64,000 bases of DNA. Origin: Amaricoccus solimangrovi (GTDB lineage: Bacteria > Pseudomonadota > Alphaproteobacteria > Rhodobacterales > Rhodobacteraceae). Positions within the stretch are counted from its first letter, which is position 1. Each line of letters opens with the position of its first letter. The notes below the pieces were generated by a model. The model had not been told where the DNA came from, did no database searches, and saw nothing but the letters and a program-made list of their open reading frames with translations. The stretch is from NCBI RefSeq assembly GCF_006385685.1, contig NZ_VFRP01000023.1, forward strand, positions 1 to 64,000. Direction: 5' to 3'. This document shows positions 52,619-58,223 of the stretch, one piece after another. Made by a program: the position numbers and the translations under genes.

Positions 52619-53587
52619 TCACGCCGCTCCGGTGTCGATCACGACCTTCCCCGTGGCCGCCCGGCTGCGGAGCAGGTCCAGCGCCGCGTTCGCCTCCGCG
52701 AGCGGCAGGACATGGCTCACATGGGGCCTGATCCAGCCGCGCTCGTACCAGGCGAAAAGCGCCCCGAGGCTCGCCGCGACGATCTCCGGCCGGTGCGCGA
52801 CGAGCCCGCCGAAGTACAGCCCGTGCACGCTCTGGTTCTTCACGAGCAGGATGTTCGCCGGCAGGTCCGGCACGCCGCCGCCCGCGAAGCCGATCGGCAG
52901 GATCCGCGCGAAGGGCCGGCAGGCGCGGAAGGCCGCCTCCCCGGGCGCGCCGCCGACCGCGTCGTAGAGCACGTCGACCCCGCCGAGCGCGCGGAGCCGA
53001 TCCCTCAGATCCGGCGCGTCCGCCTCCACCAGATGGCGCGCACCCGCCGCCCCGGCGATGGCGAGCCGCTCGGCGCCGCGGGCGATGGCGATCACCTCCG
53101 CGCCCATGCGCGCGCCGATCTCGACCGCCGTCAGACCCACGCCCCCGGCGGCGCCCAGCACCGCCAGCCGTTCCCCAGGACGAAGCCCGGCGAGATGGGC
53201 GAGGGCGACATGGCTGGTACCATAGGCGATCAGGAAGCCCGCCACCTCGGCGTCCGGCATCGCCTCGGGCGCGGGAAAGCAGCGTTCGGCGGGGCAGGCG
53301 ACATAATCCGCGTATCCACCGGAAGCGGGCAGCGCGGCGACCCGCGCGCCGATCGCGAGCCCCGTCACCCCCGGGCCGAGCGCCACGACCTCGCCCGCGA
53401 CCTCGAGCCCGGGCGTGAGCGGCAGCGGCGGCTTCTCCTGGTACTTCCCCGCGACCATCAGCGTATCGGCGAAATTGACGCCGCAGGCGCGGACCGCGAT
53501 CAGCGCCTCGCCCGGACCGGGTTCCGGCCGGGGAATCTCGGCGAGGGTGAGGGGCTCGCCCAGGGTCTCGATCCGCATCGCACGCAT
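52619..53587 (-). CDS. NADPH:quinone oxidoreductase (MDR family)
   Basis: The 322-residue medium-chain reductase has the GroES-like domain (ACGVNFADTLMVAGKYQ, PGLEVAGEVVALGPGV) and the Rossmann domain LGAAGGVGLTAVEIGARMGAEVIA. It lacks the zinc Cys cluster, as quinone oxidoreductases do. The C-terminus ends ATGKVVIDTG. It uses NADPH to reduce quinones or related enones. GGAGG is five bases before ATG 53587. It diverges from typA. Confidence 0.92.
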   Translation of the reverse strand: MRAMRIETLGEPLTLAEIPRPEPGPGEALIAVRACGVNFADTLMVAGKYQEKPPLPLTPGLEVAGEVVALGPGVTGLAIGARVAALPASGGYADYVACPAERCFPAPEAMPDAEVAGFLIAYGTSHVALAHLAGLRPGERLAVLGAAGGVGLTAVEIGARMGAEVIAIARGAERLAIAGAAGARHLVEADAPDLRDRLRALGGVDVLYDAVGGAPGEAAFRACRPFARILPIGFAGGGVPDLPANILLVKNQSVHGLYFGGLVAHRPEIVAASLGALFAWYERGWIRPHVSHVLPLAEANAALDLLRSRAATGKVVIDTGAA

Positions 53588-53771
53588 TCGGGCCTCCATC
53601 CGCCGTGGGAGGGAAACCCTAGGCAGGCGGCCCGCCGCTGTCATGCGCGGATGCCGCGAGGCCGTGCGAAGGTCGAATTCCGCGGGCCGCCGCGGCGCAA
53701 CATTGCCTTTTGCCCTCCGGGACACTAAGGGCACGCCCGAGGGGCGCGGGGCCCCGCCGAGGGTTTGTCCG

Positions 53772-55589
53772 ATGGATATGAGAAACATTGCGATCATCGC
53801 GCACGTCGACCACGGGAAGACGACGCTGGTCGATCAGCTGCTCAGGCAGTCGGGCACCTTCCGCGACAACCAGGCGACCGTCGAACGGGCGATGGATTCG
53901 AACGATCTGGAGCGCGAGCGCGGGATCACCATTCTCGCCAAGGCGACCTCGGTCGAATGGCAGGGCCACCGGATCAACATCGTCGACACGCCCGGCCACG
54001 CCGATTTCGGGGGCGAGGTGGAGCGCATCCTCTCGATGGTCGACAGCGTGGTGCTGCTGGTCGACGCGGCCGAGGGGCCGATGCCGCAGACGAAGTTCGT
54101 GACGGCGAAGGCGCTCCGCCTCGGCCTCCGCCCGATCGTCGTGCTGAACAAGGTCGACAAGCCCGACGCCGAGCCCGACCGCGCGCTCGACGAGGTATTC
54201 GACCTCTTCGTGAGCCTCGACGCGAACGAGGAACAGCTCGACTTTCCCGTGCTCTACGCCTCGGGCCGCGCCGGCTGGGCCGATGCCGAGCTCGACGGGC
54301 CGCGCGAGAATCTCGACGCGCTCTACAAGCTCATCCTCGAGCACGTCCCGGCGCCGAGGCAGCTCGCCCATGTGGACGAGCCCTTCTCGATGCTCGCCAC
54401 CACGCTCTCCGCGGACCCGTTCCTCGGGCGCCTGCTGACGGGGCGGATCGAGACCGGCCGGGTCAAGACCGGCCAGATGGTCAAGGCCCTCTCGCGCGAG
54501 GGCAAGGAGATCGAGCGCTTCCGCGTCTCGAAGGTCCTCGCCTTCCGCGGCCTCCAGCGCCAGCCGATCGACGAGGCGGAGGCGGGCGACATCGTGAGCC
54601 TTTCGGGCATGGCGAAGGCGACGGTCGCGGACACGATCTGCGATCTCTCGGTCAGCGAAGCGATTCCGGCGCAGCCGATCGACCCGCCGACGATCTCCGT
54701 CACCTTCGGCATCAACGATTCGCCGCTCGCCGGCCGCGATGGCGACAAGGTGCAGAGCCGGGTGATTCGCGACCGGCTGATGCGCGAGGCGGAGACCAAC
54801 GTGGCGATCAAGGTCGCCGACACGCCGGGCGGCGAGGCCTTCGAGGTCTCGGGCCGGGGCGAGTTGCAGATGGGCGTGCTGATCGAGAACATGCGCCGCG
54901 AGGGGTTCGAGCTCTCGATCTCGCGCCCGCAGGTGCTCTTCACCGAGCGCGACGGCGTGCGCTACGAGCCGCTCGAGGAAGTCACGATCGACGTGGACGA
55001 GGAATATTCCGGCGTCGTCGTCGACAAGCTCAGCCAGCGCAAGGGCGAGCTCTCGGAGATGCGCACCGGCGCCGGCGGCAAGACCCGCATCGTCGCGCTG
55101 GTGCCGAGCCGGGGCCTCATCGGCTATCACGGCGAGTTCCTGACCGACACGCGCGGCACCGGGGTGATGAACCGCGTCTTCTCCGACTGGACACCCTATC
55201 GCGGCGCGATCCCGGGCCGGCGTAACGGCGTGCTGATCTCGATCGAGGACGGCACTTCGGTCGCCTATGCGATCTTCAACCTCGAGGATCGCGGCACCTT
55301 CTTCATCGGCGCGCAGGAGCAGGTCTATCAGGGCATGATCCTCGGCGAGCACAGCCGCGACAACGATCTCGAGGTGAACCCGCTCAAGGGCAAGAAGCTC
55401 ACCAACGTCCGCGCCTCCGGCACGGACGAGGCGGTGCGGCTGACGACGCCGGTGCGCATGACGCTCGAACAGGCGATCGCCTATATCGAGCCGGACGAGC
55501 TCGTCGAGGTGACGCCGCGCCACATCCGGCTCCGCAAGCGCTACCTCGATCCGCACGAACGCAAGCGGCAGGCCCGCGCGGCGGAGTAA
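53772..55589 (+). CDS. typA: Ribosome-associated GTPase TypA/BipA
   Basis: The 605-residue translational GTPase has the G-domain (1-195) with [15 protein letters not shown], the ERERGITI switch, [14 protein letters not shown] and NKVDKPDA. The elongation-factor-like domains follow (EF-Tu domain 2 about 205-290, domains III and V). The TypA-specific C-terminus holds [15 protein letters not shown] and [23 protein letters not shown]. It acts on ribosomes in stress and cold. Its length is normal. Confidence 0.96.
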
Positions 55590-55614: not shown

Positions 55615-57420
55615 CTACTGATGCAGGAGCGGGCGCTCGCCCGCGCGCCGGCGGCTGAGCGCGACGGCGGCCATGACGAGGCCGATGTGGCTGAAGGCCT
55701 GCGGGAAGTTGCCGAGCATCTCCCCGGTCTCGGCGTCCACCTCCTCCGACATGAGCCCGAGATCGTTCGCCTGGGCGAGCAGCCGCTCGAACAGCGCCTC
55801 GGCCTCCGGCATCCGGTCGAGCAGCGCGTAGACCTCGACGAGCCAGAAGGTGCAGATGAGGAACACGCCCTCGTGCCCTTCGAGCCCGTCGTGGCCGTCG
55901 GTCTGGTAGCGCAGCAGGAAGCCGTTGCAGGAAAGCTCCCGCTCGATCGCGGCGACGGTCCCCGCGATGCGCGGATCCTTCGGCGGCAGGAAGCCCACGA
56001 GCGGCAGGGTCAGAAGGCTCGCATCCACCGTGGTGGAACCGTAGTACTGGGTGAAAGCGCCGATCTCGGGATTGTAGCCCTTCGCGCAGACATCGGCGTG
56101 GATCTCGTCGGCGATGGCGCGGTAGTGGCCCGCCTGCGCCGCGTCGCCATGCGCCTGCGCCGCCTTCGCCGCGTGATCGAACCCGACCCAGGCCATGACC
56201 TTGGAATAGACGAAATGCTGGCGCGCGCCGCGCACCTCCCAGATGCCTTCGTCCGGTTCGCGCCAGGCCTTCTCGAGGAAGCCCATCACCACGTCGCGAT
56301 AGGCTCCCTGCCGGGAATGCGGCGGCAGGCCACGGCGGGTGGCGAGGGCCAGCACATCGGCCACCTCGCCATAGACGTCGAGCTGGAACTGGTCGGCCGC
56401 GGCGTTGCCGACGCGGACCGGCTTCGAGCCGGCGAAGCCGGGCAGCCAGTCCACCTCCCATTCGGTCAGCACCCGTTCGCCGGCGAGCCCGTACATGATC
56501 TGCAGCTGGTCGGGCGAGCCCGCCACCGCCCGCACGAGCCAGTCGCGCCAGGCTTCCGCCTCGCGCCGGAGCCCGGTCTCGAGGAAGGCCTGCAGCGTGA
56601 AGGCCGAGTCGCGCAGCCAGCAGAAGCGGTAGTCCCAGTTGCGGACCCCGCCCATGGTCTCGGGCAGCGAGGTCGTCGCGGCGGCGGCGATGCCGCCGCT
56701 CGGGATATAGGTGAGCGCCTTCAGCGTGAGGAGCGAGCGGTTCACCGCCTCGCGCCAGGTCGGGCGCATCTTGGGCGGCAGCATGATCCGGTCGGTGAAG
56801 GCGTCCCAGTAGGAGCGGGTGGAGTCGAGGGCCTCGCCGGCCTCGACCACCGCGGGCGCCCCGCCATAGGAGCGGCCATGCGTCAGCACGAAGTCGCGGC
56901 ATTCCCCCTCCGCGACCGCGAAGGTTCCGACGGTATGGAGATCCTCGCCGTGCAGTTCGACCGGCGAGCGCAGGATGAAGAGATCGGGGCCGGCGATCGC
57001 GTGCCAGTCGTCGCCGTGGCGGTCGACCCAGGGCACGGTGCGGCCGTAGTCGGCGCGGATCGCGAGGTCGAATTCGAGTTCGACGGTGCCGCGCAGCCCC
57101 TCGACCCGGCGCACGATGGCCTGGGTGCCGTTGGGCATGGGCATGAAGTCGAGCACGCGGACCGCGCCGGTCGCGGTCTCGTGCGTGGTCTCGAGGATCA
57201 TCGTGAAGGGTTCGTAACGGCGCGAGGAGGTGTGCTCTCCCGCCGGCCGGATCAGCCACCGTCCGTTCTCGCGCGTGCCGAGCAGCGCGGCGAAACAGGC
57301 CGGCGAGTCGAGCCGCGGCCAGCAGAGCCAGTCGATCGACCCGCTCCGCGACACGAGGGCGCAGGAGCGGCCGTCGGCGATGAGTCCGTAGTCCGAGATC
57401 GCCCCGCGTGTGTCCGCCAT
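55615..57420 (-). CDS. Glycoside hydrolase family 15 protein
   Basis: The protein is about 601 residues and belongs to the bacterial GH15 glucoamylase/trehalase branch. It opens with ISDYGLIADGRSCALVSRSGSIDWLCWPRLDSP, a beta-sandwich domain, then the (alpha/alpha)6 barrel. NWDYRFCWLRDSAFTLQAFLETG and the catalytic Glu of IWEVRG are near the middle, and the base Glu is in MSEEVDAETGEMLGNFPQAFSH. No signal is seen. It cleaves an alpha-glucoside, perhaps trehalose. ATG 57489 with GGAGG upstream would add 23 residues and is a serious alternative. Confidence 0.88.
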   Translation of the reverse strand: MADTRGAISDYGLIADGRSCALVSRSGSIDWLCWPRLDSPACFAALLGTRENGRWLIRPAGEHTSSRRYEPFTMILETTHETATGAVRVLDFMPMPNGTQAIVRRVEGLRGTVELEFDLAIRADYGRTVPWVDRHGDDWHAIAGPDLFILRSPVELHGEDLHTVGTFAVAEGECRDFVLTHGRSYGGAPAVVEAGEALDSTRSYWDAFTDRIMLPPKMRPTWREAVNRSLLTLKALTYIPSGGIAAAATTSLPETMGGVRNWDYRFCWLRDSAFTLQAFLETGLRREAEAWRDWLVRAVAGSPDQLQIMYGLAGERVLTEWEVDWLPGFAGSKPVRVGNAAADQFQLDVYGEVADVLALATRRGLPPHSRQGAYRDVVMGFLEKAWREPDEGIWEVRGARQHFVYSKVMAWVGFDHAAKAAQAHGDAAQAGHYRAIADEIHADVCAKGYNPEIGAFTQYYGSTTVDASLLTLPLVGFLPPKDPRIAGTVAAIERELSCNGFLLRYQTDGHDGLEGHEGVFLICTFWLVEVYALLDRMPEAEALFERLLAQANDLGLMSEEVDAETGEMLGNFPQAFSHIGLVMAAVALSRRRAGERPLLHQ

Positions 57421-57842
57421 TCCCGCCGCCCTTCCCGCCGCCCTTGTCAGATCGCTCAGCCGCCCCAACTTGGACCGAAACGGCGCCATGGCGGAAGCCC
57501 TCCGCGTCGGCACCTGCCCGCCTGGGGCGCCGATGCCCATGAAAGGCGCAGTCCGGAGGCGAAGTGCTGCCAGCCGGGCGTTGCGCGCTCCCGCCCCCGC
57601 GACCCGCGTTTCGATATTGCGCCGCGGCGTTTTGCATTTTGCAAAGCACTTTGCAAACGGCCGCGCCGATGCCTTCCGGTAGTTCGCGTAGGCGTTACTC
57701 CCGCGCTGATTGTGGGGGCGGATTCGATCGCCCGGAAGGAGAAAAACCTCCGATTGAGCGACCTGTACGTCCCGCGCGTGGTGTGCGACAATTGGCACGA
57801 AGCTTGCTTTGGACTGAGTAGAGGTTATCTGTGGAGCGTGCG
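57421..57842. other. Long intergenic region between GH15 and XRE genes
   Basis: These 422 bases divide divergent GH15 and XRE genes. The left part may include extra GH15 codons up to ATG 57489. The middle contains a direct pair of TTTGCAAA palindromes at 57638-57657 and another related TTTTGCA at 57630-57636. The right side leads to the XRE ribosome site GGAG. No other gene is seen. Confidence 0.6.
57638..57657. promoter_or_regulatory. TTTGCAAA-N4-TTTGCAAA operator-like site
   Basis: Two identical palindromes TTTGCAAA are separated by GCAC. This is the form I recall for PccR and other ScfR-family (short-chain fatty acyl-CoA) regulators of Rhodobacter. It lies about 149 bases from one GH15 start and 186 bases from the XRE start. 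An additional TTTTGCA copy precedes it. No ScfR gene is in the window. Confidence 0.7.
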
Positions 57843-58223
57843 ATGAGACATCCGGTTGATGTTCATGTGGGAAAACGGGTTCGCCACAGGCGCTGGATGG
57901 TGGGGATGACCCAGCAGCAGCTCGGCGATATCGTGGGCATCAAGTTCCAGCAGATCCAGAAGTACGAGACCGGGATGAACCGGATCAGCGCCTCGCGGCT
58001 CTGGGACATCTCGCAGGCGCTCGACGTGCCGGTCAGCTTCTTCTTCGAGGGGTTCGACGGCGAGAACAGCGTTCCCGACGCGGCGCCCTCGGTCGCGGAT
58101 ACCCGCGGCGACCTGCTCGCTGACAAGGAGGCGCTGGAACTGGTCCGCTCCTACTACGCGATCCCGGAGGCGCAGCGGCGCCGGCTGTTCGAACTCGCCC
58201 GCGTGCTGAGCGACGTCGCCTGA
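57843..58223 (+). CDS. XRE-family transcriptional regulator
   Basis: The 126-residue protein has a helix-turn-helix at about 10-65: HVGKRVRHRRWMVGMTQQQLGDIVGIKFQQIQKYETG (in two pieces), then MNRISASRLWDISQALDVPVSFFFEGF. This is the PraR/PhrR-like branch of alphaproteobacteria. A C-terminal helix (ALELVRSYYAIPEAQRRRLFELARVLSDVA) is probably for dimerisation. GGAG lies six bases before ATG 57843. Targets unknown. The long upstream region has the TTTGCAAA pair. Confidence 0.9.
   Translation: MRHPVDVHVGKRVRHRRWMVGMTQQQLGDIVGIKFQQIQKYETGMNRISASRLWDISQALDVPVSFFFEGFDGENSVPDAAPSVADTRGDLLADKEALELVRSYYAIPEAQRRRLFELARVLSDVA

Follow-up and report, generated by a model that had tools for sequence, protein, structure and literature searches.

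A probable LuxO-type, sigma-54-dependent input to a PraR-like gene of Amaricoccus, with a possible overlapping PccR site

Paired boxes ahead of an XRE-type regulator gene of Amaricoccus solimangrovi are probably the enhancer (UAS) from which a response regulator of LuxO type, acting with sigma-54, would activate this PraR/CdxA-like gene. The proposal draws on sequence motifs, their conservation, the coupling of sigma-54 promoters to palindromes and the co-occurrence of a LuxO-like gene in a comparison of 11 genomes. Such an activator would connect the PraR-like regulator with a relay of the quorum-sensing kind and not with the use of glucans. Throughout, the window denotes the whole 64,000-nucleotide stretch of DNA that was analysed.

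Operator, promoter and neighbouring genes in the window

A motif search of the 64-kb window located the composite TTTGCAAAGCACTTTGCAAA, that is TTTGCAAA-N4-TTTGCAAA, as an exact match at positions 57638–57657 (unstranded), which bears out the perfect pair described in the earlier note. The composite had no other window match even at up to three mismatches and none in any of 100 shuffled sequences, and TTTGCAAA itself occurs twice in 64 kb against an expected 0.04, placing the pair far above chance. The third, partial copy previously noticed just upstream is also real and proved more than partial: TTTGCA at 57631, followed by TTT and TGCAAA, completes a perfect 15-bp palindrome, TTTGCATTTTGCAAA, at 57631–57645 on the plus strand, which has a single window match at up to two mismatches (none in 100 shuffles) and which the composite overlaps. 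The UAS consensus of LuxO, TTGCAWWWTGCAA, is matched at 57632–57644, inside the palindrome; PMC10162802 and PMC11443567 give this sequence as the UAS recognised in Vibrio by LuxO, an enhancer-binding protein that works with sigma-54. Matched without mismatch and conserved in Amaricoccus, the palindrome TTTGCA-TTT-TGCAAA is our proposed UAS for a LuxO-type enhancer-binding protein. The second box, TTTGCAAA at 57650–57657 (plus strand), stands 12 bp from the right half of the palindrome, the two together constituting the N4 pair; it may be a half-site for the activator or for PccR, whose detection the N4 spacing tracks.

Across the 4.86-Mb genome (135 contigs), the copy at 57638–57657 is the only perfect one, and imperfect copies comprise one with one mismatch, one with two and two with three, against none for a reversed control. 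The search of the rest of the genome thus returned a near-perfect copy, the one-mismatch site at C49:99718, between pccR and the divergent pccB. The two-mismatch copy, TGTGCAAAACAATGTGCAAA (L003, G000:C49:200973-200992), lies shortly before a putative tRNA gene. The shorter form TTGCAA-N6-TTGCAA gave 33 matches at up to two mismatches both in this genome and in the reversed control; only its two perfect copies, at the XRE gene and between pccR and pccB, are informative.

Downstream of the boxes, the sequence TTGGCACGAAGCTTGCT at 57792–57808 (plus strand) matches the sigma-54 pattern in full, and we read it as an RpoN -24/-12 promoter, TTGGCACG-AAGC-TTGCT with no mismatch, from which transcription would start near 57818; the earlier note does not mention this element. 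The pattern follows the sigma-54 -24/-12 consensus. The palindrome lies upstream, with 156 bp between its centre and the -24 GG. At up to two mismatches the motif has two matches in the window against 0.92 in shuffles, which alone is no proof, so the weight of the promoter assignment rests on relatives. No sigma-70-like promoter was found in 57480–57860, where 0.0 were expected, making this result uninformative.

The site is flanked as the earlier note stated, by a GH15 gene on the minus strand (55615–57489; PF00723 and TREH_N; start codon provisional) and by the XRE regulator gene on the plus strand (57843–58223; ATG start, with an alternative GTG at 57831), whose product matches HTH_3. The GH15 glucan/trehalose hydrolase gene sits between the XRE gene and typA/bipA, an open reading frame listed at 53415–55589 (plus strand; translation may actually begin at a more internal codon) that is the usual upstream neighbour in Amaricoccus. 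Relatives of the XRE protein, at ~40–43%, include HTH proteins from Caulobacter phages, which agrees with the PraR/CdxA/TgrL family described in PMC10688885. A PraR-like label is plausible for the gene, whose role in Amaricoccus would presumably be that of a PraR-type regulator.

The palindrome precedes the XRE gene in 11 of 11 Amaricoccus genomes, with the boxes ~200 bp before the XRE start, and the site thus occupies the same place in all ten close relatives. In 10 of these 10 a same-strand typA comes before the site, and GH15 does so in the window's genome only (flanks of ~1.5 kb at most were compared, and L013 shows only the end of typA). With typA rather than GH15 before the site in the other ten, only the XRE gene is a constant partner of the site, and so its conserved target. 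GH15 was rejected as a target, the examined flanks of the ten other Amaricoccus loci containing no such gene, and the tie to the use of glucan or trehalose that was suggested earlier is left unsupported.

Palindrome and promoter across the family

Upstream regions were collected from the 137 family genomes, out of 150 searched, that have the XRE gene. A strict sigma-54 motif precedes the gene in 22 of the 137 (mean 0.2 in 50 shuffles), and the palindrome accompanies it in all 22, compared with 20 of the 115 regions lacking the motif (p=3e-14). With a looser sigma-54 motif, 26 regions contained both elements, none the sigma-54 motif only, 16 the palindrome only and 95 neither; shuffles of the same regions gave means of 0.2 for the sigma-54 motif (26 observed) and 1.5 for the palindrome (42 observed). 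A second set of 119 regions, derived from 134 XRE loci by removing identical upstream regions (124 left) and dropping five shorter than 300 bases, overlaps the first, so that the two sets of counts are not independent; it held 38 regions with both elements, 4 with sigma-54 only, 28 with the palindrome only and 49 with neither, and the four exceptions, called by regex, include two Haematobacter records. The sigma-54 regex matches nine of the 11 Amaricoccus genomes; a single base in the -12 element keeps G004 and G001 from matching. Among regions with a strict box array and a strict sigma-54 motif, the nearest box precedes the -24 element by 105–175 bp in 10 of 11. A test on phylogenetically independent pairs had four usable pairs and no power, and shared ancestry may therefore be part of the coupling.

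TTGCAA occurs in 68 of the 119 XRE upstream regions (23.4 in shuffles), and TTTGCAAA-like boxes stand 7 bp (34 pairs), 12 bp (22) or 19 bp (17) from one another, each expected ~0.2 times from shuffles. A three-box pattern so spaced, searched in 61 family genomes, gave seven matches at up to one mismatch, whose coordinates place all seven immediately ahead of the XRE gene; with two mismatches, 12 more matches appeared, two of them at the XRE gene, and the reversed control gave three in all. The 7-bp pair amounts to a single palindrome, TTYGCA-WWW-TGCRAA, whose two halves often mirror each other's T/C and A/G changes (for instance TTCGCA...TGCGAA). The conserved unit is a putative LuxO-type palindrome plus sigma-54 promoter, rather than the N4 pair.

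Exact TTTGCAWTTTGCA sites number 60 in 150 genomes (3 in the reversed control), with 15 at the XRE gene in 14 genomes and 7 at pccB in 7 genomes; no third recurrent place emerged among 22 other sites inspected, whose genes are scattered. This tally placed 44 of the 60 sites, combining 30 loci inspected by eye (4 XRE, 4 pccB and the 22 scattered) with 11 XRE sites by coordinates and 3 pccB sites among the 30 others. The pccB promoters inspected (L308–L313 and others), from many genera, carry dense TTTGCAAATTTGC and TTTGCAATTTGCA arrays with a spacing that varies by genus, and no sigma-54 motif was seen by eye at those with TTTGCAATTTGCA arrays, so that the palindrome alone is not specific. In Amaricoccus the N4 form is regular.

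Another type of element recurs at the same gene. A lux box has the form ACCTGT-N8-ACAGGT, and lux-box-like elements with up to two mismatches (for example ACCTGTCCAATTAGACAGGT) precede the XRE gene in 32 of 137 genomes against 0.6 in shuffles, mostly 80–160 bp before its start. They accompany the sigma-54 element in 8 of 26 regions and occur in 24 of the 111 regions without it; the window has none. Such an element is a possible LuxR-type input to the XRE gene, and quorum sensing may feed into this gene in many members of the family.

A LuxO-like activator and the proposed mechanism

Candidate activators were compared in 11 genomes picked beforehand, six with both palindrome and sigma-54 element (G000, the window's genome, with G010, G013, G067, G133 and G144) and five with neither (G012, G016, G076, G080 and G086). 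Together these yielded 50 PF00158 matches to sigma-54 activators at E up to 1e-20. A LuxO-like gene, the one activator group traced, is present in six of six genomes with both elements and in none of the five with neither. The copy of the window's genome (C49, ~115.7–117.1 kb) has full-length orthologues of 55–74% identity in the five other genomes, and no orthologue was detected among all 16 enhancer-binding proteins (PF00158, E up to 1e-20) of the genomes with neither element, the nearest of which reached 34.4% at full length, 36% along 354 residues and 45% in a 233-residue stretch of the AAA+ region.

The LuxO-like protein (L434) combines a receiver domain (PF00072), a sigma-54 AAA+ domain (PF00158) and a Fis-type HTH (PF02954), with the GAFTGA loop and the receiver Asp both visible. 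The best NCBIfam model for all six proteins was LuxO (522–561 bits), followed by NtrC (369–411 bits), and the closest solved structure by sequence was LuxO 5ep0 (E 7e-122). The 800-bit cut-off of the Vibrio LuxO equivalog NF041946 was reached by none of the six, and we therefore call them LuxO-like rather than LuxO. A protein with HATPase and receiver domains is encoded directly upstream of the LuxO-like gene in G013, G133 and G067; the histidine-kinase-like/receiver gene at this place in the window's genome scored 24.2 for HATPase, under the cut-off of 26.4, and an Hpt protein occurs upstream in G144 only. In G013 the kinase and LuxO-like genes are preceded by an acetyl/propionyl-CoA synthetase-like gene (AMP-binding and ACAS_N by Pfam; L453), and the start of a similar protein appears at this place in G000 (L452, G000:C49:108000-122000) and G067 (L456).

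We propose that a histidine-kinase relay would phosphorylate the LuxO-like protein, which, as the motif suggests, would then oligomerise on the palindrome at 57631–57645 with help from the box at 57650–57657. Enhancer-binding proteins of this class act through DNA looping and the opening of sigma-54 polymerase by their AAA+ domain, an established mechanism that would here operate on the promoter seen at 57792–57808. The XRE regulator made as a result would presumably resemble Rhizobium PraR in repressing functions of the surface and of biofilms.

LuxO and sigma-54 form the core of Vibrio quorum sensing and drive small RNAs there. Like the Vibrio LuxO/qrr system, the locus described here pairs the palindrome TTGCAWWWTGCAA with a downstream sigma-54 promoter, and its candidate activator is a REC-AAA-Fis protein whose best match is LuxO by both NCBIfam and PDB sequence. 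Unlike that system, it belongs to an alphaproteobacterium, its promoter drives a protein-coding XRE gene rather than a Qrr small RNA, the palindrome centre lies at 156 bp from the -24 GG, the relay partners appear to differ, and the protein falls under the NCBI equivalog cut-off. In another alphaproteobacterial family, locus L051 (G037:C2:131380-134399, minus strand, near locus position 1430) contains a sigma-54-like element with a perfect TTTGCATTTTGCAAA 97 bp ahead of it and a hairpin (-41.8 kcal/mol, z -7.1) immediately behind. A reading frame resembling a response regulator begins ~370 bp beyond the hairpin, and no gene was recognised in the interval; the layout looks like that of a LuxO-type, sigma-54-driven small RNA, in the manner of Qrr.

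Competing readings of the site and their bearing on the regulator

The earlier note had read the N4 pair as a site of PccR, an ScfR-family regulator, and the pair does have what we take to be the PccR operator form of Rhodobacter sphaeroides pccB, TTTGCAAA-N4-TTTGCAAA. That PccR alone binds it and couples the propionyl-CoA level to transcription of the XRE gene (and of GH15), without LuxO, is in our estimate improbable. The ScfR family is indeed represented in the window's genome, where a PF09856 profile search returned three genes including pccR; this, the one-mismatch pccR–pccB site of the same genome, the TTTGCAAA boxes and 7-bp arrays at family pccB promoters and the recurrence of exact TTTGCAWTTTGCA sites at the XRE gene and pccB all favour PccR. 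So does the N4 spacing within Amaricoccus, which is retained in eight of eight genomes with a PccR hit (the hit in G001 being partial, and the second box in G009, which has PccR, degenerate) and in none of the three without one, G003, G010 and G004, where it is N5, N5 and N6. In a tree of the XRE region G003 groups with G010 and G004 with G006, a placement suggesting that the loss happened twice; the drafts of G003, G004 and G010 are 93, 92 and 98% complete. Across the family, however, the strict box array shows no association with PccR, occurring in 23 of 118 genomes with a PccR ortholog and 2 of 19 without (p=0.53, 137 genomes; ortholog defined as best E ≤1e-150, with G186 counted as without by elimination), so that the array is not restricted to PccR genomes and the N4 spacing alone tracks PccR, in 11 of 11 Amaricoccus. 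Searches with the PccR protein found no ScfR in G144 (E 1e-50) or in G010 (E 1e-30), both of which nevertheless carry the palindrome, the sigma-54 promoter and the LuxO-like gene together, and a palindrome or array is likewise present where the same query found no ScfR in G003 and in G079 (10 of 14 candidates scored). TTGCAA-N6-TTGCAA, moreover, is confined to 10 of the 119 XRE regions, three of them in Amaricoccus, and the sigma-54 coupling stays unexplained because ScfR proteins are not known to contain a sigma-54-activating AAA+ domain. What stands of the PccR reading, then, is the pccR gene, its one-mismatch pccB site and the match between N4 spacing and PccR in Amaricoccus; the persistence of the elements without detected ScfR counts against the remainder. 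The locus shares its TTTGCAAA-N4-TTTGCAAA form with the pccB operator of Rhodobacter sphaeroides, and its genome has the one-mismatch pccR–pccB site; it differs in having as target an XRE gene with a sigma-54 promoter and a palindrome that persists in genomes where no ScfR was detected.

The site might instead be the XRE protein's own operator, which we regard as very improbable, although PraR of Rhizobium leguminosarum offers a precedent: PMC4149787 reports a gel shift on the praR promoter, a MEME consensus of TTGCAA and repression of PraR's own gene, and a differing PraR consensus, CAAC-N5-GTTG, is quoted in PMC5748706. The recognition helix GIKFQQIQKYETG is identical in 38 of 38 XRE proteins with both elements and in 49 of 49 with neither, so the operator does not occur wherever the same helix does (49 of 119 identical-helix genes have neither element); further, 95 of 137 XRE genes have neither, and no comparable array was seen by eye at 20 further XRE-like loci (17 from other families, 3 from this one).

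The LuxO model that we prefer also admits a non-exclusive variant, tentative and on balance unlikely, in which the LuxO-type UAS of Amaricoccus is overlapped by a PccR site and PccR blocks or helps the activator. The right half of the palindrome and the N4 box have the PccR form, the N4 spacing coincides with PccR in all 11 Amaricoccus with the PccR-less genomes in two tree places, and the synthetase-like gene ahead of the kinase/LuxO-like pair of G013, with similar starts in G000 and G067, is consistent with such an overlap. The losses number at most two, however, and fall in the three incomplete drafts, and G009 has PccR yet a degenerate second box. If the overlap exists, which we doubt more than we credit, it would make a two-input switch of LuxO-type enhancer and PccR (propionyl-CoA) site that sets a PraR-like master regulator, with lux-box-like elements joining or replacing the LuxO input in sister genera.

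Whichever inputs apply, the gene encodes an HTH_3 protein of the same kind as PraR of Rhizobium leguminosarum and CdxA/RtrA of Caulobacter. In Rhizobium, praR is itself linked to quorum sensing (PMC4149787), the link there being the antirepressor CinS, whereas here it is apparently a LuxO-type sigma-54 activator. None of the best-matching open-licence papers listed names, in its title or opening abstract lines, a praR-like gene of Rhodobacteraceae that is under LuxO-type control.

Because PccR boxes and LuxO enhancers are nearly identical, motif resemblance alone misassigns such sites, and promoter class together with the presence of an activator decides between them. In Alphaproteobacteria, LuxO enhancer grammar would apparently drive a PraR/CdxA-type regulator, which makes an input to this regulator family directly testable; and were the two-input switch true, a quorum-type phosphorelay and short-chain acyl-CoA status would be read at one operator.
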